Below, in pieces: positions 9,738 through 41,656 of a stretch of DNA of 64,000 nt. Position 1 is the first letter of the stretch; each line of letters begins with the position of its first letter. This DNA comes from Deltaproteobacteria bacterium (GTDB taxonomy: Bacteria; Myxococcota_A; Polyangia; HGW-17). Under the pieces are notes generated by a model. The model did not search any database. It was not told where the DNA came from and saw only the letters and a program-made list of their open reading frames with translations. The DNA is taken from positions 1-64,000 of the forward strand of contig JAFGWM010000040.1 in NCBI GenBank assembly GCA_016937155.1, read 5' to 3'. A program made the position numbers and the translations under genes.

Positions 9738-11792
9738 ATGAAAAATTTATTAATACTTGCAGTAACTGTTTTATTTTTCATATCTTGTGATGATTCAACT
9801 GAGAAACTAAAAAACTGTGGAAATGGAATTATAGACATAGGCGAGGATTGCGAAATCAACAATACTGATGGAGAAACATGTATTTCTATGGAGTTTCATA
9901 ATGGAACTCTGGGTTGTACATTAAATTGTAGATTTGATTTTTCTGATTGTGAGGAATGGGGAAAATGTGGTGATAATGAGCGTCAGGTGGATTATGAGGA
10001 ATGTGATGAAAATGCTATGCCTTTTACCAACTGTGCTCAACTTCCAGGTGAAAATTTTGATAGCGGATTGCTGTCGTGTCTTGATGATTGTACATTTGAT
10101 CGTTCAAACTGCATCCGGGAGTCATGTGGAAATGGAATTATAGACTCCACAGAGTCCTGTGATGGAACACAACTTAATGGTATGAATTGTGAAAATTTTG
10201 ATTTTTACGGTGGAATACTTGGGTGTTATGGAACATCCTGTGAGTTTAATACTCTTCAGTGTGAAGGTTATTGTGGAGATGGAGAATTACAACCTGAGTA
10301 TGAGGAGTGTGATGATACCCATCTCAATAATATGATATGCGATGATTTTGGTTTTTACTCTGGAGAAATATCATGTAAAACAGATTGTACAATAGATACT
10401 GATGGCTGCAGTAATTACTGTGGAGACGGTATATTACATTCTTTGGAAGGGGAGGAGTGCGATCTCACTGTGGATGAATCCATTACCTGTGAAGGTCTTG
10501 GATACAATGGTGGTAACGTGTTTTGTGATTCATACTGCAAAGTGGATATCAGTGATTGTGAATTGCATGGTATTTGTGGTGATAATATAGTTCAATCATC
10601 TGAAACCTGTGACGGGACAAATTTCAACGGAGTTACTTGTCTGGATTATGGGTTTTTCTCAGGAGAACTCTATTGTCCCATGGATTGTTCAGAGATTAAT
10701 TCAAACTGTTGTAAGTCCAGAATTTATGTAAACGTATCTGCAGGTGATGCCCACACATGTGCTGTTGATATTTTCGGAAAAGTGTGGTGCTGGGGAAACA
10801 ATTCCTACGGTCAACTGGGAATAGGAAACACCAATAATTCTTCATCCCCCGAAGCTGTTGATGCTGCATCTGATCTAAGTTTTCTGGTAGTAAGCTGTGG
10901 AAAAGAAGTTACCTGTGCCCTCAGTGATACCGGAAGAGTATGGTGCTGGGGAAAAGGCAGTTTTTTTGATTCAACTCAGGATATTCTGGTACCACGTGAG
11001 ATTTCAGGCACTTATCCTGATTTTACATCTGTTTCATGTGGAGCAAATCATTGCTGTGGTAGTGATTCAACTTCGGAATACTGTTGGGGATCAAATACAA
11101 TGTATGAATTTGGAACTGGGGATTCCAATCCAACTTTGAGTGCAACACCTCTTCAGACTTTTTCCTTCAGTGGTTCATCTCAGATTTCTTCCGGAGACGA
11201 TCACAGTTGCAAATTGGATACGGCAGGAACTATTGAGTGCTGGGGATCAAATTCCAATTCAATGTGCGGATTGCCTGGCTTATCCTATGTAACTTCACCT
11301 GAGGTTATAGATGCAACTGTTTTGAACACTATTGTGGATATAACTGCCGGAGGTGTTCATAGTTGTTTTATTGACAGTACAGGCCAGGGATGGTGTTTTG
11401 GTGCCAATGACTACGGGCAGCTTGGTCAGGGTGATGTAGATTACGATGCACATCTTCCTGAGATGATTAATCAGACAGATCTGTTGTTTTCATCTATCTC
11501 AGCAGGAAGAGCATACACGTGTGCTGTGTCCACCGACGGAAAAGTATGGTGCTGGGGAAGAAATCAGATGGGTCAACTTGGAAATCATTCAAATGAAAAC
11601 TCCAGTGTTCCTGTTACACTCTATCCAGGATCTGTTTCTGAAAAAATATTTGTTAATGTAACTACCGGTACAGAGCATGCGTGTGCTCTGGAAAACAATG
11701 GAATTCTATGGTGCTGGGGAAAAGGAACAAGTGGCCAGCTTGGTAACGGTAGTATTTCTACATCATCAATTCCAGTAACTGTTTCTGAGTAA
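9738..11792 (+). CDS. Lipoprotein with Cys-rich repeats and RCC1 propeller
   Basis: A 684-residue surface-type lipoprotein. The signal sequence ends VLFFISC (lipobox Cys about 17). Residues about 25-325 contain six Cys-rich units, each opening with CG[ND][GN] and carrying E.CD and further paired cysteines, as in the myxobacterial Cys-rich (DUF4215-like) repeat family. Residues about 330-684 contain seven RCC1-type units, several with the signature HTCAV...G.VWCWG...YGQLG, so a complete seven-bladed propeller is expected. Four units keep the full VWCWG/LWCWG form; the others vary. The gene is preceded by a 102-base gap and may have its own promoter. The role is probably extracellular binding or adhesion (inference). 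Its stop directly abuts the convergent gene's stop. Confidence 0.9.
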   Translation: MKNLLILAVTVLFFISCDDSTEKLKNCGNGIIDIGEDCEINNTDGETCISMEFHNGTLGCTLNCRFDFSDCEEWGKCGDNERQVDYEECDENAMPFTNCAQLPGENFDSGLLSCLDDCTFDRSNCIRESCGNGIIDSTESCDGTQLNGMNCENFDFYGGILGCYGTSCEFNTLQCEGYCGDGELQPEYEECDDTHLNNMICDDFGFYSGEISCKTDCTIDTDGCSNYCGDGILHSLEGEECDLTVDESITCEGLGYNGGNVFCDSYCKVDISDCELHGICGDNIVQSSETCDGTNFNGVTCLDYGFFSGELYCPMDCSEINSNCCKSRIYVNVSAGDAHTCAVDIFGKVWCWGNNSYGQLGIGNTNNSSSPEAVDAASDLSFLVVSCGKEVTCALSDTGRVWCWGKGSFFDSTQDILVPREISGTYPDFTSVSCGANHCCGSDSTSEYCWGSNTMYEFGTGDSNPTLSATPLQTFSFSGSSQISSGDDHSCKLDTAGTIECWGSNSNSMCGLPGLSYVTSPEVIDATVLNTIVDITAGGVHSCFIDSTGQGWCFGANDYGQLGQGDVDYDAHLPEMINQTDLLFSSISAGRAYTCAVSTDGKVWCWGRNQMGQLGNHSNENSSVPVTLYPGSVSEKIFVNVTTGTEHACALENNGILWCWGKGTSGQLGNGSISTSSIPVTVSE

Positions 11793-35082: not shown

Positions 35083-35622
35083 ATGTACAAAAATGTGCAA
35101 TTAAAAAGAATCATTATTGTATCAACACTGATGATTTGTGTATATATACCTTCAGCACATGCTCAGAGTGTCACTTTTTCAGGTAGATTAAATGCTGGAA
35201 CAGGTATTACCACTGGAAAAACGGATGAAAATCACGTAAGAAGATCCCCTTCGTTTTTATCAGCCGAGTTGAGAACTTTTTTTGATGATGATGTTTTCCC
35301 AGTTTATTCTCTGGAAATTTTATCAGAAATAGAATCACGAACCACACTTGGAATAGTCCCAAAAATTGAATATACAGGGTCAATTGGAGACAATTTAGCG
35401 GTTACTGTCTATGGAGGTATACATTCTAAAGTAGCTCCTATGACAATGTTTGGGCCTGAAATTGGAGTATACCTGCATATGGATTTGGGGAAGATAGTTA
35501 TTCATTTTAAAATTTCCATGGGAATATTTCCATGGGGGGATGATTTACCTGATGGAACTACTCTGACAAAGATTGATTTCTCCACGGGATTTTCATTTCC
35601 GATAACGAGGTATGGACAATGA
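35083..35622 (+). CDS. Secreted beta-rich protein, unknown function
   Basis: A 179-residue protein with a signal peptide ending PSAHA (about 27), then alternating beta strands ending in an aromatic-rich C-terminus (FSFPITRYGQ). This resembles a small outer-membrane barrel or a periplasmic beta protein, but no family is recognised. The first codons overlap a TGTACA word. The next gene overlaps it by four bases, so the two are probably co-expressed. Confidence 0.7.
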   Translation: MYKNVQLKRIIIVSTLMICVYIPSAHAQSVTFSGRLNAGTGITTGKTDENHVRRSPSFLSAELRTFFDDDVFPVYSLEILSEIESRTTLGIVPKIEYTGSIGDNLAVTVYGGIHSKVAPMTMFGPEIGVYLHMDLGKIVIHFKISMGIFPWGDDLPDGTTLTKIDFSTGFSFPITRYGQ

Positions 35623-36086
35623 AAACCAGAAGTGTATTTTTTGTAAATCTCTTAACACTTCTTTGTCTTTATGGATGCAGTGTAAATGGTAATCCATGCT
35701 TAAGACACAGTGACTGCGCAGGAAATGAAGAATGTATTGCCGGGGTATGTTCCATTCCTTCAGATTCTTCTATAAGTGATGGAGGTAATGATATCGATGA
35801 TATAACTGATATTCAGGATGCAGTAGATGTCGATGATATAACTGATACCCAGGATGCAGCAGATATCGATGATATAACTGATGTAATGGATACTATAGAC
35901 TCTTCTGATGTTTCAGATTCAGGAAACATGGATGTAACTGACAGTTCGGGAGATTATACTGATACTGTGGATTCGGGTATCCCACCTGTTCCTCCTGCAA
36001 ATTTTTATCTTTTTATCAGATCACTTGGTTTTTATACTCAAAACTCACCGGTGGAAAAAAATCAACATAATTATAAAGTTAGATAA
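35619..36086 (+). CDS. Asp-rich lipoprotein, probably truncated
   Basis: A 155-residue protein. The signal sequence ends CLYGC (lipobox Cys about 20). A short Cys-rich unit follows (CLRHSDCAGNEECIAGVC), typical of myxobacterial surface lipoproteins, then three 12-residue Asp-rich repeats (DIDDITDIQDAV and variants) and an acidic Ser/Asp region. The frame ends after a short unmatched tail (PPVPPANFYLFIRSLGF). Such acidic tethers normally lead into a large surface domain, so the domain may have been lost. It overlaps the end of the convergent CooC-like gene by 8 bases. Confidence 0.65.
   Translation: MKTRSVFFVNLLTLLCLYGCSVNGNPCLRHSDCAGNEECIAGVCSIPSDSSISDGGNDIDDITDIQDAVDVDDITDTQDAADIDDITDVMDTIDSSDVSDSGNMDVTDSSGDYTDTVDSGIPPVPPANFYLFIRSLGFYTQNSPVEKNQHNYKVR
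35790..35897 (+). repeat. 36-bp tandem repeat, three copies
   Basis: Three in-frame 36-bp units at 35790, 35826 and 35862, each carrying gatgatataactgat, encode a 12-residue acidic repeat in the lipoprotein. The copies diverge by a few bases, the third most. Confidence 0.85.
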
Positions 36087-36843
36087 TACCTTCCTTTTCA
36101 AGAATATTTTTCAGAGCTGTAAGTGAAATTGAATCTTCTGGGATCAGAAAAGCATTTTCACCACGACTGTCAAGAGAGGTAATATTTTTATCAGGAGGAA
36201 TGACTCCATAAATTGAAAGTCCTTTTTCTTTTATAATATTTTCCAGACCCGGTTCAAAACTTTCAACCCTGTTGAAAATAACTCCTGTTTTTAAAGGTTC
36301 CATTCCCGGTGAACTATCAATGGTTTCTTTCGCAAGAACAGTTGTTTTTGCTCCTCTCATGGAATTGTCAGTTAGAAGTATTGGATAATCCACGCTTTGA
36401 GTTACTTCTCTGTTAATCTGCTCAATACCGGCTTCTGCATCTATAATTACAACATCGTAATTGGATGAGATGGAATCAATTGTTTCTCTGAGGAGAGAAT
36501 TTATAGGACAGTAGCATCCAACAGTATCTGTGTGACCCATTACCAGTAGACTGTATTGGGCAGTTTCATAAAGAGCTTCCAAAAGCAGATAATCAATTAT
36601 TTCACTTAACCTGGCGGATTCATCTTTCCTTGAAATCTTAGCCTGCCTGATTATTTCTTCCCGTGCTTTTCCAATAGTTTTAAAATTTTCAACATTAAGT
36701 GCTGTGGCAAGGCCCATGGCCGGGTCAGCATCAATAAGGAGAAGTTTTTTCCCCTGATTTAGAAAAAGTTTTGCAGTCAGAGAGGACAGAATGGATTTTC
36801 CTGATCCTCCTTTTCCAAGAAAAGCTATGGTTTTGGGGTTCAT
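36079..36843 (-). CDS. CooC-like nickel-insertion ATPase
   Basis: A 254-residue MinD/SIMIBI-class ATPase. Seen: the deviant Walker A KGGSGKS (11-17) with its signature Lys, the DADP Walker A' segment (38-41), VIIDAEAG (Walker B region), and a C-x-C motif (Cys 110, Cys 112) in GCYCPIN. In CooC of CO dehydrogenase the equivalent Cys-x-Cys binds Ni or Zn at the dimer face and ATP drives Ni insertion. No CODH gene is in the window. It is the last gene of the six-gene operon and overlaps its neighbour by four bases, so it probably matures a metal site in that complex (inference). Confidence 0.85.
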   Translation of the reverse strand: MNPKTIAFLGKGGSGKSILSSLTAKLFLNQGKKLLLIDADPAMGLATALNVENFKTIGKAREEIIRQAKISRKDESARLSEIIDYLLLEALYETAQYSLLVMGHTDTVGCYCPINSLLRETIDSISSNYDVVIIDAEAGIEQINREVTQSVDYPILLTDNSMRGAKTTVLAKETIDSSPGMEPLKTGVIFNRVESFEPGLENIIKEKGLSIYGVIPPDKNITSLDSRGENAFLIPEDSISLTALKNILEKEGII

Positions 36844-37571
36844 TGGTTCCTCTTTCTGAAAGTAACGACTTTCCTTATTATGTCACAGGCAGTTTTTTCA
36901 TCACATACACTGCAATCCAGATCTGTGCAGGCAATGATTCCTTCAGATTCCCATTTTAATCTGGTGTTTTCTCCTGAAATAACCCCAGCTGCGGAAGCAA
37001 TACTTTGAAATGAGGAAATTAATTCATCATTACCGGCAGCGATAAAAATATCTATGTTTTTTATTTCAGGATAAATAGTCTGATATTCATTTCTAACAAC
37101 TTGAGCAAAATTGAACAGACTAAAATTTTTTCCCACTTTCCTGTGGACTCTGATCCATAATTTTCCTGGAAATATTTTAGTCATTATTCCCGGAATTTTA
37201 TTTATCATGTTCATTATTCTGAAAACTCCACCCTCAACAGCCCTATCTGAATCATTCATTTGAATTACAACCATGTACAGAAAGGATTGTTTTTCAGCAG
37301 TTTCATGTAAGAAATGATCACCATGAAGGTAGAGTTTATTGCTGACAATTTCAGAATCCCTTGTCCATAAACCCCTGGAAACGGACAGTTTTCCTGGCGG
37401 GCCAAGTTCAAGGACTGTATCTTCTGACAGAACTACGGATGAAAGAATTTTGTTTCCACTTGATACTTTGAGATCATCAAGAGCCTGAGAATCTCCCCAT
37501 GGATATTCTTCAAAAAATGAAATATGTTCTCTGATTTTATTAATCAGATAAGTATGATCCTGCTGAGTCAT
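36840..37571 (-). CDS. Acetyl-CoA-synthase-beta-like protein
   Basis: A 243-residue protein with no full match to a known enzyme. Its latter part follows the pattern of the CODH/ACS beta-subunit (CdhC/AcsB): LWIRVHRKVGKNFSLFNF, YPEIKNIDIFIA, and a Cys cluster C-x5-C-x2-C-x5-C (CTDLDCSVCDEKTAC, about 217-231), where ACS proteins have a comparable stretch. The A-cluster cysteines of full-length ACS further along are absent. It may therefore bind metal or a partner and not synthesise acetyl-CoA. It overlaps both neighbours by four bases. The similarity is by my own pattern reading and needs a profile search. Confidence 0.55.
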   Translation of the reverse strand: MTQQDHTYLINKIREHISFFEEYPWGDSQALDDLKVSSGNKILSSVVLSEDTVLELGPPGKLSVSRGLWTRDSEIVSNKLYLHGDHFLHETAEKQSFLYMVVIQMNDSDRAVEGGVFRIMNMINKIPGIMTKIFPGKLWIRVHRKVGKNFSLFNFAQVVRNEYQTIYPEIKNIDIFIAAGNDELISSFQSIASAAGVISGENTRLKWESEGIIACTDLDCSVCDEKTACDIIRKVVTFRKRNQ

Positions 37572-38353
37572 TTTTTCCTGTTTAATTTTTCTGCACCAAT
37601 CAGTGCTGCTCCAAATGCTCCTGCAAGGGATGGGTTTATTTTCAACGGGATTAATTCACAGTTGAGAATTTCCTTTAGTTTCAGGGTAAAAAATGGAATA
37701 TGTGCCAATCCACCTGTAACGGATACCGGTCCATGAGCATTAATTCTGGAATACATTGTTTTACTTTTTTCCACGATGGAAATAATAATACCTGCAAGTA
37801 TATCACTTGTGTTGTCTCCAAGATTTACTCTGCTGATAACTTCACTTTCAGCAAATACTGCACAACTGTTGGACATTTTATATGGTTTGACTGATTCGGA
37901 ACAGACATTGGATATTTCATCTATCGGTACTTCAAGGGCTGATGTTATCATATCCAGAAGTTTACCACTACCAGCAGCACATTTTTCATTTTCAGCTCTG
38001 TCAAGGATCATTCCATCCTTTGAAAGAGAGCATATATTCAGAAAAAGAGCCCCAGCGTCAATAACGGTGCGTGTTTCCGGATTTAAACGGTATGCTGTAT
38101 GAGCAATGCTGCTCTCTACATCAACAATAAAATCAGCGTTTTTTACAAGATTAGCTCCGAAACCACAGGCTGTTTTATTTCTGACCTGAAAGCCAAAAAT
38201 CCCGGCTTTATCCAGGGCCGCCTTATAGGATGATTTCATTACCTTACTGAAACTGCCAACAAGCTGTCTAATATCATAACCTGTGATTTCACCATCTTTT
38301 ACAATGCAAATTTTTACGTATTTAGTTCCTATATCAAAACCAGCTGTAATCAT
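37568..38353 (-). CDS. BadF-type activase with degraded ATPase motif
   Basis: A 261-residue ASKHA-fold protein of the BadF/BadG/BcrA/BcrD family. The Fe-S ligand cysteines are kept at 125 (NEKCAAGSG) and 164 (SNSCAVFAESEV), the positions that bridge a single [4Fe-4S] cluster in HgdC. The N-terminal phosphate loop is FDIGTKYVK. The second phosphate motif, DIGGQD in active members, reads D-A-G-A-L-F here (99-104), so ATP hydrolysis is doubtful. It is probably the partner of the intact activase encoded just upstream in the operon, forming a heterodimer as in benzoyl-CoA reductase (inference). Confidence 0.88.
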   Translation of the reverse strand: MITAGFDIGTKYVKICIVKDGEITGYDIRQLVGSFSKVMKSSYKAALDKAGIFGFQVRNKTACGFGANLVKNADFIVDVESSIAHTAYRLNPETRTVIDAGALFLNICSLSKDGMILDRAENEKCAAGSGKLLDMITSALEVPIDEISNVCSESVKPYKMSNSCAVFAESEVISRVNLGDNTSDILAGIIISIVEKSKTMYSRINAHGPVSVTGGLAHIPFFTLKLKEILNCELIPLKINPSLAGAFGAALIGAEKLNRKK

Positions 38354-39144
38354 TTATTTATTTTACCTGAATTGAATTTTTTCTGTGCAAAAAGAGCTGC
38401 CCCTATTGCTCCCATAAGCTGGGGATCATGGTTCAGAGGAGAAAACCGAATTTTAAGTTCATGTTCAATATCTCTTACAACTGCAAGATTTTTTGAAACA
38501 CCTCCACTTATACAAATATCACCAGGTAATTGAACTTTTCCTGCAAGGGCTGCAATTCGTTTCGCAATCGAAACAGTAATACCGTGAGCAATATTTTCTC
38601 TTTTCTTCCCCTGATAAAGGAGCTGCATAACATCCAGCTCCATAAATATACTGCACTTATTTGATATAGGAAGAGGATGTCTGGATTTTAAAGCAAATCT
38701 TCCCAGTTCCTCAAGATCAAGATCAAGTGTTGAACTAAGAATTTCAAGGCTCCTGCCAGTTCCTGCGGCACACTTATCGTTCATAACAAAATCATCAACC
38801 AGACCATGGGAATCGATATTTATAATTTTACAATCCTGACCACCAATATCAATAATTGTTCTTATGGAATTATTGCTGAAAAAGGTACCAAGACCATGAC
38901 ATGAAATTTCACTCATCTGACATTGCGAAAAAGAAATATCATTTCTTCCATAACCTGTTGTGCATGTACAAGCGAGATCTTCAATTCTAAGATTCTGCCT
39001 TTCTAAAACAGTATCCATTACCCATTGGGCGCTGAGGATGGATCTCGCCTTAACAGGTCCTATACAGGAAGTGGTGATTTTTCCATTTTCGAGTAGTACA
39101 CCCTTTGCTGTAAGGGAACCGATATCAATTCCTGCAAATATCAT
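38350..39144 (-). CDS. BadF-type ATP-dependent activase
   Basis: A 264-residue ASKHA ATPase of the 2-hydroxyacyl-CoA dehydratase activator family. Seen: GIDIGSLTAK (phosphate 1), TGYGRND, DIGGQD (99-104, phosphate 2), NDKCAAGTGR with Cys 125, SNKCSIF with Cys 164, and ISGGVSKN (adenosine loop). The two cysteines match the [4Fe-4S] ligands of HgdC. It should use ATP to drive an electron at very low potential into the Fe-S subunits encoded upstream. It overlaps both neighbours by four bases. Confidence 0.93.
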   Translation of the reverse strand: MIFAGIDIGSLTAKGVLLENGKITTSCIGPVKARSILSAQWVMDTVLERQNLRIEDLACTCTTGYGRNDISFSQCQMSEISCHGLGTFFSNNSIRTIIDIGGQDCKIINIDSHGLVDDFVMNDKCAAGTGRSLEILSSTLDLDLEELGRFALKSRHPLPISNKCSIFMELDVMQLLYQGKKRENIAHGITVSIAKRIAALAGKVQLPGDICISGGVSKNLAVVRDIEHELKIRFSPLNHDPQLMGAIGAALFAQKKFNSGKINK

Positions 39145-40274
39145 GTTAAATTTACAACCTTTTCATAGAATGCCTGAATTCTGGTTTTCAACTGTCCGGT
39201 ACCTCCTCCGTAAAGTTCTCTGGTGAGTGTAATCGATGGAATATTGTATCTGTCCATTTCCTGTGAACAAATATAGGATTCTCCTGACATCATGGAGCAG
39301 AATTCAAGTTTTTCGATGATTACTGCATCAGCACTGTAGCGGGAGATCATATCCCTGTAATAGTTAATTCTTCCACGATAATCATCCATCATTCTCGGGC
39401 AGGAAATATTATAGAGATATCTCTGAGCAATACTTTGAAAAATATCATCTGTAATTTCAACATTATTTTCAAAATACCGGCTTCCAAAACATATTGAATC
39501 GGCAACAACAACTGCATCTGAAGATTCCAGTAGTTCCAGATGGGAAATTTCTTCAACACAGCTTCCGGTAATGAAAATTCTCAGTGCCGGATTTTTCGAA
39601 AAAACTCTTCCATTTTGAATTTCTTCGATTATTTTTTCGAGAAAATCAATAGCTGTCTCCACTGGAAGAACGTTTACAGCAAGCATAATACTCAGAAATT
39701 CTGTTCCTGAAAGTGGAACAGTTTTTTCTACTCTTGTTTCAGATATCTTTTTAAGAAGCTGGCGTTTTCTATTGTATAAAATGGTGGACTCAGAGAGTTT
39801 TTCAGGAGTTATTTCAGTTTCCATTTTTTCTTCAAGGAAAGATTTTAATTTATGAAGTTCATGGAAATACTGATCAAAAGAGGCTGGAGATTTCGCATGA
39901 GGTACGAAGAGCATATAATTAAAACCTTTACCGGTTTCAGAATATCTCCAGTTATCATAAATTCTGCGATTGTGATCGCATCCATTCATGAAAACAACGC
40001 CATTAAGAAAATCAAAATCTCCACTCAACGCCTTATCCATAATCCGTCTGGCAAAAGAACAGTTATTTGAAGAAAAGTAGGTATCTCCCATGGATGTTCC
40101 CTTACTTTCCACAGCCCTGAGTCTGTAGGGAACTCCACCAGCGGCATGTATCAATTCCTCTGGAACATAAGAGCAGATATAACCGATGATTTTTTCATTA
40201 TTTGAAATTTTCTGTTTTAGATGATTATTCAGAGTCATCTGTGATATGTTTTTAATCTCACTTATAACACTCAT
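39141..40274 (-). CDS. 2-hydroxyacyl-CoA dehydratase-type Fe-S subunit (small)
   Basis: A 377-residue subunit of the HgdB/HgdA/BcrB/BcrC family. Seen: ICSYVPEELIHAAGGVPYRL, NNCSFARRIMD (Cys 72), FMNGCDHNRR (Cys 99), EFCSMMSGE (Cys 325) and the C-terminal GGGTGQLKTRIQAFYE. Three conserved Cys match the [4Fe-4S] ligands of the family. In size it resembles BcrC/BzdN. It starts on the last base of the upstream stop codon. The substrate is not readable. Confidence 0.92.
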   Translation of the reverse strand: MSVISEIKNISQMTLNNHLKQKISNNEKIIGYICSYVPEELIHAAGGVPYRLRAVESKGTSMGDTYFSSNNCSFARRIMDKALSGDFDFLNGVVFMNGCDHNRRIYDNWRYSETGKGFNYMLFVPHAKSPASFDQYFHELHKLKSFLEEKMETEITPEKLSESTILYNRKRQLLKKISETRVEKTVPLSGTEFLSIMLAVNVLPVETAIDFLEKIIEEIQNGRVFSKNPALRIFITGSCVEEISHLELLESSDAVVVADSICFGSRYFENNVEITDDIFQSIAQRYLYNISCPRMMDDYRGRINYYRDMISRYSADAVIIEKLEFCSMMSGESYICSQEMDRYNIPSITLTRELYGGGTGQLKTRIQAFYEKVVNLT

Positions 40275-41656
40275 TATGCAAGTCCAGTACTGGTGAAAAA
40301 GTTGCTTAGTTCCCTTTTTAGTTCATTTTCATTCATGACTCTTTTGTCGAAAATATCTGCTTCCATCATCAGATAGGGAATTGAATGACTCTTGCATACA
40401 TCCTTCACAATACGGTGAAGTGCCCTGTTATGTTTACAGCCCTGATGTCCGTTAAAAATAACGCAATCTGCACTGAACTGCTGTATCTGCCTTTCAAGAT
40501 CATTAACAGTTTCTTCAAACTTGCCATGAGCCTGTTTTATCATTCCAGTATAAAGTCTGTCTCTCGCAAGACCCATCATCATGGTTTCGTTATTTGTCAT
40601 ATCAATTTCGGGATAAATTGCATCCCCGATATAATCACTGACCACAACTCCTCCAAAATTAACTTCTATCCATTTGAAAAGTTCTGTGAAAACAATGGGC
40701 ATATCAGCTATTATTATTCTGAATTTTTCTATTTTCTTTCTGGATGCGGGATTTTTAATTCTTTTTCTGGCAATTTCATAATTCAACCTTGCATTTTCCA
40801 TGATATAGGGATCTCCACTGTTGGGTATCTTGGAAAGCCAGGCGTTTTGAATAGCATAGCCAAGTCCGGGTGATGGAATATTCTGATTCATATGAGTAAT
40901 TTCATTCAGGTAGAAATTATGTTTGTTGAGAATATCGATCATTTCCCGGAATTTTTTCCAGTCAAAATTTTTCTTAAGGGTTTCTTCTAGAAATTCAATG
41001 GCTTCAAAAAGATTTTTTGAGTACAGATTAACGTCTTCATCTTCCTTTGTATAAGAGGTGTTTATTGTGTAAGCAGGTGCACCACTGATATACTCAAGCA
41101 ACTGATTTGTTGTACGGCCGGCATCACAGGGGTGCGCTACGCTAATTATAGCTGTAGGTTCCGGTATCTGTTTGAGAAGATATGCACCCAGAGTAATTCT
41201 GTCCATAGCACAGATATCATCAGATACTCCAATTCGTTCCACTGCTTCCAGGCAGGCTACATGACCATCAGTTCCAACGATATTGGCTATAGCCATAAAA
41301 CTTTCAGGTACAAAAGCTGCGACATCAAATCCTTTGACTATCTCAATAGGAACAGGCCAATCCAGCCATACTACGTCGGTGCCTTCACGATGAGCTTTAA
41401 TTAGCCTGTTATAGTGCCTGTAGGTAGCCATAGCATCATAACGATAGGCATACAGTTCATCCGGAGTCCATGTTGATGATCCTACTTTCTGAAATCCGAA
41501 TCTGTTGGCTTTGTTCAGTGGTGTTTCTTCAGAAAATATTAGAGGTGATACCGCTTTTAATACCAGCCATGCAATTTTAGGCTGGGCCAGCATAACTTCA
41601 CCAAGTTTAGCAGCCATAGCAACTTTTTTAATAATTTCATAAGGTTTAAGTTCCAT
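40274..41656 (-). CDS. 2-hydroxyacyl-CoA dehydratase-type Fe-S subunit (large)
   Basis: A 460-residue HgdB-family subunit, first gene of the operon. The likely cluster ligands are Cys 149 (DDICAMDR), Cys 177 (AHPCDAGRTTNQ) and Cys 407 (GHQGCKHNRALH), and the C-terminus has the IPYLMMEADIFDKRV segment of the family. Length and position resemble BcrB/BzdO of ATP-dependent benzoyl-CoA reductase. A GGAGGA site lies before the ATG, at a long spacing of about 11 bases. With the 377-residue subunit it would form the catalytic dimer. No aromatic-degradation genes lie nearby, so the substrate is open. Confidence 0.92.
   Translation of the reverse strand: MELKPYEIIKKVAMAAKLGEVMLAQPKIAWLVLKAVSPLIFSEETPLNKANRFGFQKVGSSTWTPDELYAYRYDAMATYRHYNRLIKAHREGTDVVWLDWPVPIEIVKGFDVAAFVPESFMAIANIVGTDGHVACLEAVERIGVSDDICAMDRITLGAYLLKQIPEPTAIISVAHPCDAGRTTNQLLEYISGAPAYTINTSYTKEDEDVNLYSKNLFEAIEFLEETLKKNFDWKKFREMIDILNKHNFYLNEITHMNQNIPSPGLGYAIQNAWLSKIPNSGDPYIMENARLNYEIARKRIKNPASRKKIEKFRIIIADMPIVFTELFKWIEVNFGGVVVSDYIGDAIYPEIDMTNNETMMMGLARDRLYTGMIKQAHGKFEETVNDLERQIQQFSADCVIFNGHQGCKHNRALHRIVKDVCKSHSIPYLMMEADIFDKRVMNENELKRELSNFFTSTGLA

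Follow-up and report, generated by a model that had tools for sequence, protein, structure and literature searches.

A six-gene operon of mixed ancestry

The DNA analyzed here, hereafter the window, is a stretch of 64,000 nucleotides from a Deltaproteobacteria bacterium (GenBank assembly GCA_016937155.1, contig JAFGWM010000040.1, positions 1 to 64,000). At positions 36079 to 41656 of the window, six open reading frames (ORFs), P1 to P6, lie on the minus strand within ~5.6 kb. The first two encode a large HgdB/BzdO-type catalytic subunit (P1 or P0001; 40274 to 41656; 460 amino acids) and a small HgdB/BzdN-type subunit (P2 or P0002; 39141 to 40274; 377 amino acids). They are followed by an intact BadF-type acyl-CoA dehydratase/reductase activase (P3 or P0003; 38350 to 39144; 264 amino acids), a second BadF-type subunit whose nucleotide motifs are degenerate (P4 or P0004; 37568 to 38353; 261 amino acids), a protein resembling the middle domain (A2) of acetyl-CoA synthase (ACS) (P5 or P0005; 36840 to 37571; 243 amino acids), and a P-loop ATPase of the CooC family (P6 or P0006; 36079 to 36843; 254 amino acids). 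An earlier reading of this DNA, made from the sequence alone, had described six minus-strand genes that overlap by one or four bases, and this layout was borne out: P1 and P2 overlap by a single base (TAATG at 40274), and the remaining four overlaps are of 4 bases each (ATGA at 39141 to 39144, 38350 to 38353, 37568 to 37571, and 36840 to 36843). Profile searches likewise recovered the families and order it had given (two HGD-D, two BadF, one ACS-like, one CooC-like). Judged from sequence, this conserved cassette is a reductase engine of the benzoyl-CoA reductase (BCR)/2-hydroxyacyl-CoA dehydratase type combined with two proteins of carbon monoxide dehydrogenase (CODH)/ACS ancestry.

The P1-P2 pair and its activase

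Both catalytic subunits match the HGD-D family (PF06050; P1, E = 1.9e-45; P2, E = 6.1e-89). P1 aligned with BzdO in a profile comparison (2.4e-28), and its AF2 model (mean pLDDT 78) matched both BzdO (8s02) and HadB (3o3m) with a TM score of ~0.7 and E = 3e-15. In the alignment, P1 residues C149, C177, and C407 occupy the positions of BzdO Cys95, Cys128, and Cys380, the ligands of a [4Fe-4S] cluster, and each of the three directly precedes a helix in the model. C421 was also considered as a cluster ligand and was rejected, as the model puts it within a helix and BzdO Cys380 aligns with residue 407. Position 407 is His (GHMGHK) in most relatives from the Chloroflexota and of the OFTM73 type.

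P2 matched BzdN (8s02_B) at E = 7.1e-38, and its six cysteines (C34, C72, C99, C262, C292, and C326) are invariant in 23/23 relatives. These align one to one with Cys36/73/100/263/293/327, the six ligands of the [8Fe-9S] double-cubane cluster of BzdN (PMC11971306). The three conserved cysteines that the sequence-only reading assigned to each subunit were thus found at ligand positions in the large subunit, and the small one has six. The best NCBIfam match of P2 was the double-cubane cluster protein (DCCP) family NF040772, at 202.5 bits against a cutoff of 350. In a phylogenetic tree, all P2 proteins linked to P5 fall into one clade, separate from BzdN and DCCP.

P3 and P4 both belong to the BcrAD_BadFG family (E = 3.7e-49 and 1.1e-26, respectively); against TIGR00241, P3 scored 220 bits, over the family cutoff, and P4 scored 144.5 bits. 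Motif comparison supports the earlier description of one intact and one degenerate BadF protein. P3 keeps DIGGQD, GYGR, and both cysteines of the bridging cluster; in P4, DIGGQD has become DAGALF, GYGR has become GFGA, and SGGVSKN has become TGGLAHI. Because P4 retains both Fe-S ligand cysteines despite the loss of its nucleotide motifs, the window's lineage probably uses an asymmetric activase. Among the loci read, P4 is nearly exclusive to the order to which the window's genome belongs.

P5 and P6 resemble proteins of the CODH/ACS system

Searched on its own, P5 matched CdhC in Pfam with an E value of only 0.025 and PRK04456 with 4.4e-6. When a family profile was used, however, it matched the ACS A2 domain at E = 1.4e-21, and its fold matched 1oao at E = 2.6e-9; these two results make firm an assignment that is weak in Pfam. 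P5 shares with acetyl-CoA synthase/CdhC (AcsB; 1oao, 9c0s) the A2 fold and an invariant arginine, R141, which aligns with Arg429 of Moorella ACS, a residue that we take to have a role in CoA binding. It differs from these enzymes in having no A1 domain, no A3/A-cluster domain, and no CGC motif; true CdhC, unlike P5, matches the nickel A-cluster domain PF19436. Instead, the polypeptide terminates after a short four-Cys tail, C-x4-C-x2-C-x5-C, which is invariant across the family in the form C-x(3-5)-C-x2-C-x5-C. The kinship to CdhC/AcsB that had been proposed for this protein therefore extends to the A2 domain, with the tail in place of the A-cluster domain, and since P5 has no nickel-binding domain, the label "ACS/CODH-type" was an overstatement.

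P6 matches the CbiA/ParA family, and its best match in the PDB is the CooC structure 3kje (E = 3.6e-9). Its C-x-C motif (C110/C112) and its P-loop (GKGG.GK) are invariant in 21/21 relatives, so the earlier identification of a CooC-like ATPase with a C-x-C motif stands. P6 resembles the CooC/AcsF nickel-insertion ATPases in its P-loop, in alignment over the full length, and in the context of the C-x-C motif (GCYCP.N), which is that of CODH-linked CooC. It differs from them in its partner, which is BCR-like rather than CODH or ACS, and in forming a clade of its own, made up of the cassette members (support, 0.967), beside the CooC proteins of CODH/ACS clusters. The genome of the window carries a [NiFe]-hydrogenase-type gene, which makes nickel use plausible. 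A precedent comes from Acetobacterium, in whose isr operon, for a putative isoprene reductase, the nickel chaperones HypA/HypB stand beside a reductase that is not known to contain nickel (PMC10134865), although that operon pairs HypA/HypB with an unrelated oxidoreductase family. Beside the Glo_12 cassette, a possible nickel transporter (L010:7283-7975) has a GPDH motif that follows a His; as neither Pfam nor NCBIfam gave a match, it was not used as evidence.

The cassette recurs across phyla

The sequence-only reading had proposed checking synteny across genomes, and the gene order proved to be conserved. A second genome of the window's genus has the identical six-gene order with the same overlaps (L064), two genomes of a sister genus repeat this six-gene order (L065 and L066), and a third genus has the same order in a set that is cut by a contig end and lacks P1 (L067). 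Because it recurs in these genomes, the order is not due to chance. In G307, a more distantly related genome of the same order, the set is apparently split over two contigs, with P2-P1-P3 on one (L085) and P4-P5-P6 on the other (L068). Outside the order, we found a five-gene form with a single BadF (P2, P1, P3, P5, and P6) and variable gene order in Desulfobacterota, Chloroflexota (mainly Dehalococcoidia), Elusimicrobia, and other metagenome-assembled genomes (MAGs); the contig scan, which used one short peptide pattern, gave at least 18 cassette loci. The recurrence of this form across phyla indicates that the genes for the ACS-like and CooC-like proteins are part of the set. Within the Dehalococcoidia, 16 genomes encode both a P2-clade protein and P5, 1 encodes P5 only, 3 encode P2 only, and 217 encode neither, counts that omit eight genomes that had entered the sample through a P5 scan; over the full sample of 245, the co-occurrence is highly significant (Fisher p = 4e-25).

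Several variants of the cassette were seen. HgdB subunits are duplicated in an Elusimicrobia locus (P2-P1-P2-P1; L025:4309-11474) and in one from Dehalococcoidia (P2-P1-P1; L022:3584-9966), and in OFTM73, further HgdB pairs from the same clade have no adjoining activase (L076:8342-10798 and L077:7259-9928). In a second type of Dehalococcoidia cassette, a small protein is encoded between the BadF and ACS-like genes at L041:2458-2898, L042:8698-9138, and L043:8846-9304; that of L041 falls just under the Pfam cutoff for SCP2 sterol transfer.

A true ACS is present in 14 of the 17 genomes with a cassette. In the other three, G000 (the genome of the window), G295, and G297, with Glo_12 and an Elusimicrobia MAG among them, family searches found neither ACS nor CODH above the cutoff; the window's genome is 95% complete, and absence from a MAG is never full proof, as the missing 5% could hold ACS and CODH. 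These three genomes indicate that P5 and P6 are no leftover of a Wood-Ljungdahl pathway, and they speak against the possibility, raised in the sequence-only reading, that the two genes serve an unrelated pathway equipped with its own CODH. By gene content, the ACS-like/CooC-like pair of the cassette is independent of CODH/ACS. As a separate observation, tandem genes for an archaeal-type CdhC (~455 amino acids) and a CdhA-like protein (~828 amino acids) occur in Dehalococcoidia at L069:7617-13367 and L071:6360-14756, near genes resembling those of formylmethanofuran dehydrogenase.

A candidate ATP-driven low-potential enzyme

The closest parallels for P1 to P4 are three known systems. Class I benzoyl-CoA reductase, BzdNOPQ (8s02), likewise has two HGD-D subunits and two different BadF subunits, with a double-cubane Cys set in the small subunit and a 3-Cys site in the large one. 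The operon differs from it in the degeneracy of one BadF, in the extra ACS-A2-like and CooC-like genes, and in the acid/base residues and ring-cleavage hydrolase discussed below; the BCR equivalog scores are well below the cutoff (27.6 versus 486.55 for TIGR02260 and 134.9 versus 453.8 for TIGR03190). The 2-hydroxyacyl-CoA dehydratases (HadABC/HadI, HgdABC; 3o3m) also pair an HGD-D heterodimer with a BadF activator, and P1 of the window shares with them a HadB-like PE motif at the substrate side. They have no ACS or CooC partners, however, and the HadB/HadC scores are again below the cutoff (69.2 versus 750 for NF052455 and 119.7 versus 700 for NF052456). The beta subunit of such a dehydratase is not known to have the full double-cubane Cys set. 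DCCP and DCCP-R (6eno, 7yyl) are ATP-driven and have the same six cysteines as P2; they consist of one HGD-D subunit, whereas the cassette has a heterodimer with a separate catalytic subunit, plus P5 and P6. In the literature searched, which is only part of the full literature, we found no paper describing the P1 to P6 gene combination.

On balance, we think that the operon probably encodes an ATP-driven low-potential Fe-S reductase or radical dehydratase of the BCR/2-hydroxyacyl-CoA dehydratase superfamily, with P5 and P6 as CODH/ACS-derived partners. From the families involved, we infer ATP-coupled electron transfer. P3 and P4 would together form an ATP-hydrolyzing activase, the intact and degenerate subunits sharing a bridging [4Fe-4S] cluster, and would drive single electrons into the P2-P1 dimer. 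P2 would hold the double-cubane [8Fe-9S] relay, and in P1 the substrate would bind at a [4Fe-4S] cluster that is held by three protein ligands and left open at one position. P5, with its A2 domain and a four-Cys tail that is probably an Fe-S site, is likely to hold a CoA moiety, to dock as a client of P6, or both. P6 would probably load a metal into P5 or the P1 site, with weak hints of nickel as the most likely one. The superfamily and P5, rather than any pathway genes of the window's own, hint weakly at a CoA-thioester substrate. The "novel low-potential reductase" of the sequence-only reading is thus partly upheld, as far as the BCR/dehydratase-type, ATP-driven set and the membership of the ACS-like/CooC-like pair in the same system are concerned.

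Several observations weigh against this interpretation. The known BCR, 2-hydroxyacyl-CoA dehydratase, and DCCP enzymes function without CooC. Neither a match to PF19436 nor a CGC motif was found in P5, and we found no conserved equivalents of the BzdO acid/base residues Glu65 and His131 in the P1 alignment. The P2 clade also holds P2-P1 pairs without P5/P6 neighbors, in genomes with P5 and P6 elsewhere (L076, L077, L078, L079, L080, and L083; Chloroflexota and OFTM73), and the second type of Dehalococcoidia cluster (L041, L042, and L043) has P5 without an adjacent P6. HgdB genes occurring commonly without the ACS-like and CooC-like genes were what the sequence-only reading expected to count against it, and such genes were in part found (L076, L077, L079, L080, and L083), but in genomes that carry the pair elsewhere, which fits helpers acting in trans. 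In favor of the interpretation, cassettes in other genomes lie near acyl-CoA genes, namely, those for acyl-CoA dehydrogenase, FAS1-DH/MaoC-type dehydratase, thiolase with a ChsH2-type OB-fold protein, CoA transferase III, AMP ligase, and SCP2. Against it, we found no acyl-CoA dehydrogenase in the window's genome, nor any match to the benzoyl-CoA ring-cleavage hydrolase BamA (TIGR03200) in that genome or its family, so this acyl-CoA context is not simply transferable. On the same grounds, benzoyl-CoA degradation and beta-oxidation were rejected for the window's organism.

A narrower version of the favored reading is possible but doubtful. In it, the enzyme would be a superfamily member that depends on nickel or another heterometal: a radical reductase, driven by ATP, in which the CooC-like protein loads either the catalytic cluster or a partner cluster derived from ACS. 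If true, electron pumping powered by ATP would be combined with metal chemistry of the CODH/ACS type, and the replacement of Cys by His at the third ligand (GHMGHK), which most of the family shows, would be the mark of an altered site. A somewhat stronger contender holds that P5 and P6 are not parts of the enzyme at all but a dedicated maturation pair, with P5 as a scaffold or adaptor through which P6 would assemble or load the unusual cluster of P2 (the double cubane) or of P1, also in trans on orphan P2-P1 pairs. The orphan P2-P1 pairs that coexist with distant P5/P6 genes fit this idea, as do the loci where P6 adjoins P2-P1 without P5 (L081 and L087) and the retention of the CooC C-x-C motif and P-loop in P6. 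Yet BzdN and DCCP build their double cubanes unaided, so that a helper would be needed only if the site differs, and the co-linearity of P5 is as strict as that of a subunit; we regard this explanation as credible without expecting it to be correct.

That the operon encodes an ordinary BCR or 2-hydroxyacyl-CoA dehydratase for a well-known substrate, either benzoyl-CoA or a 2-hydroxyacyl-CoA derived from an amino acid, with the extra genes as minor accessories, seems unlikely: the P1 to P4 layout is that of BcrCBAD/BzdNOPQ, and P1 of the window keeps the three Cys ligands and the PE motif, but the NCBIfam scores are far under the BCR, dehydratase, and DCCP equivalog cutoffs, P2 lies outside the BzdN branch of the tree, and BamA and acyl-CoA dehydrogenase are missing from the genome. 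Still less probable is that P3 to P6 use ATP for the reductive activation of corrinoid methyltransferases, with the P1-P2 complex donating the electrons. Such an activator would be akin to RACo, which has an ASKHA ATPase domain, and the two cassettes of OFTM73 do have genes for a corrinoid protein and a UroD-B12 fusion on their upstream flank (L007:15077-15724 and L008:14240-16162). Most cassettes, however, have no recognized corrinoid gene nearby; only one B12-binding cap domain is present in the window's genome, within an 804-amino-acid frame, and no stand-alone corrinoid protein of that type was found there. G307 has none. The least probable explanation by far is that P5 and P6 come from an ordinary ACS/CODH pathway and stand beside the HgdB genes by accident. 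The true ACS of most cassette genomes would agree with it, but the three genomes without ACS and CODH, the spread of the cassette over several phyla with varying gene order, and the separation of the P6 clade from CODH-linked CooC do not, and for the window we rejected it, barring ACS and CODH genes in the missing part of the genome.

The preferred reading, a BCR/dehydratase-type enzyme with CODH/ACS-derived partners, draws its interest from the rarity of such chemistry: to our knowledge, few enzymes use ATP to bring electrons to potentials below the usual biological limit, namely, nitrogenase-like enzymes, the BCR/2-hydroxyacyl-CoA dehydratase superfamily, and DCCP. The retention of the set in several phyla, even without the CODH/ACS pathway, points to an undescribed enzyme. 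A further ATP-driven branch that is widespread, has CODH/ACS-derived partners, and extends to anaerobes without CODH/ACS would imply a low-potential reaction not yet described and a role for CooC-type metal loading in enzymes other than CODH and ACS.

Genomic surroundings

The neighbors of the operon in the window encode a D12 DNA methyltransferase, a HAD hydrolase, Lon, ClpX, ClpP, trigger factor, and a sigma factor. As these flanking genes are housekeeping or unrelated, P1 to P6 form an isolated unit. A scan for promoters and terminators gave sites no more common than in shuffled sequences. In OFTM73, a molybdopterin oxidoreductase follows both cassettes (L014:11986-14865 and L026:11405-14512). 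In the window, a plus-strand ORF at 35619 to 36086, with a Cys-rich N-terminal stretch and Asp-rich DDITD repeats, meets the end of the operon tail to tail with an 8-base overlap, and a large RCC1-repeat protein with a DUF4215-like stretch is encoded at 9738 to 11792.

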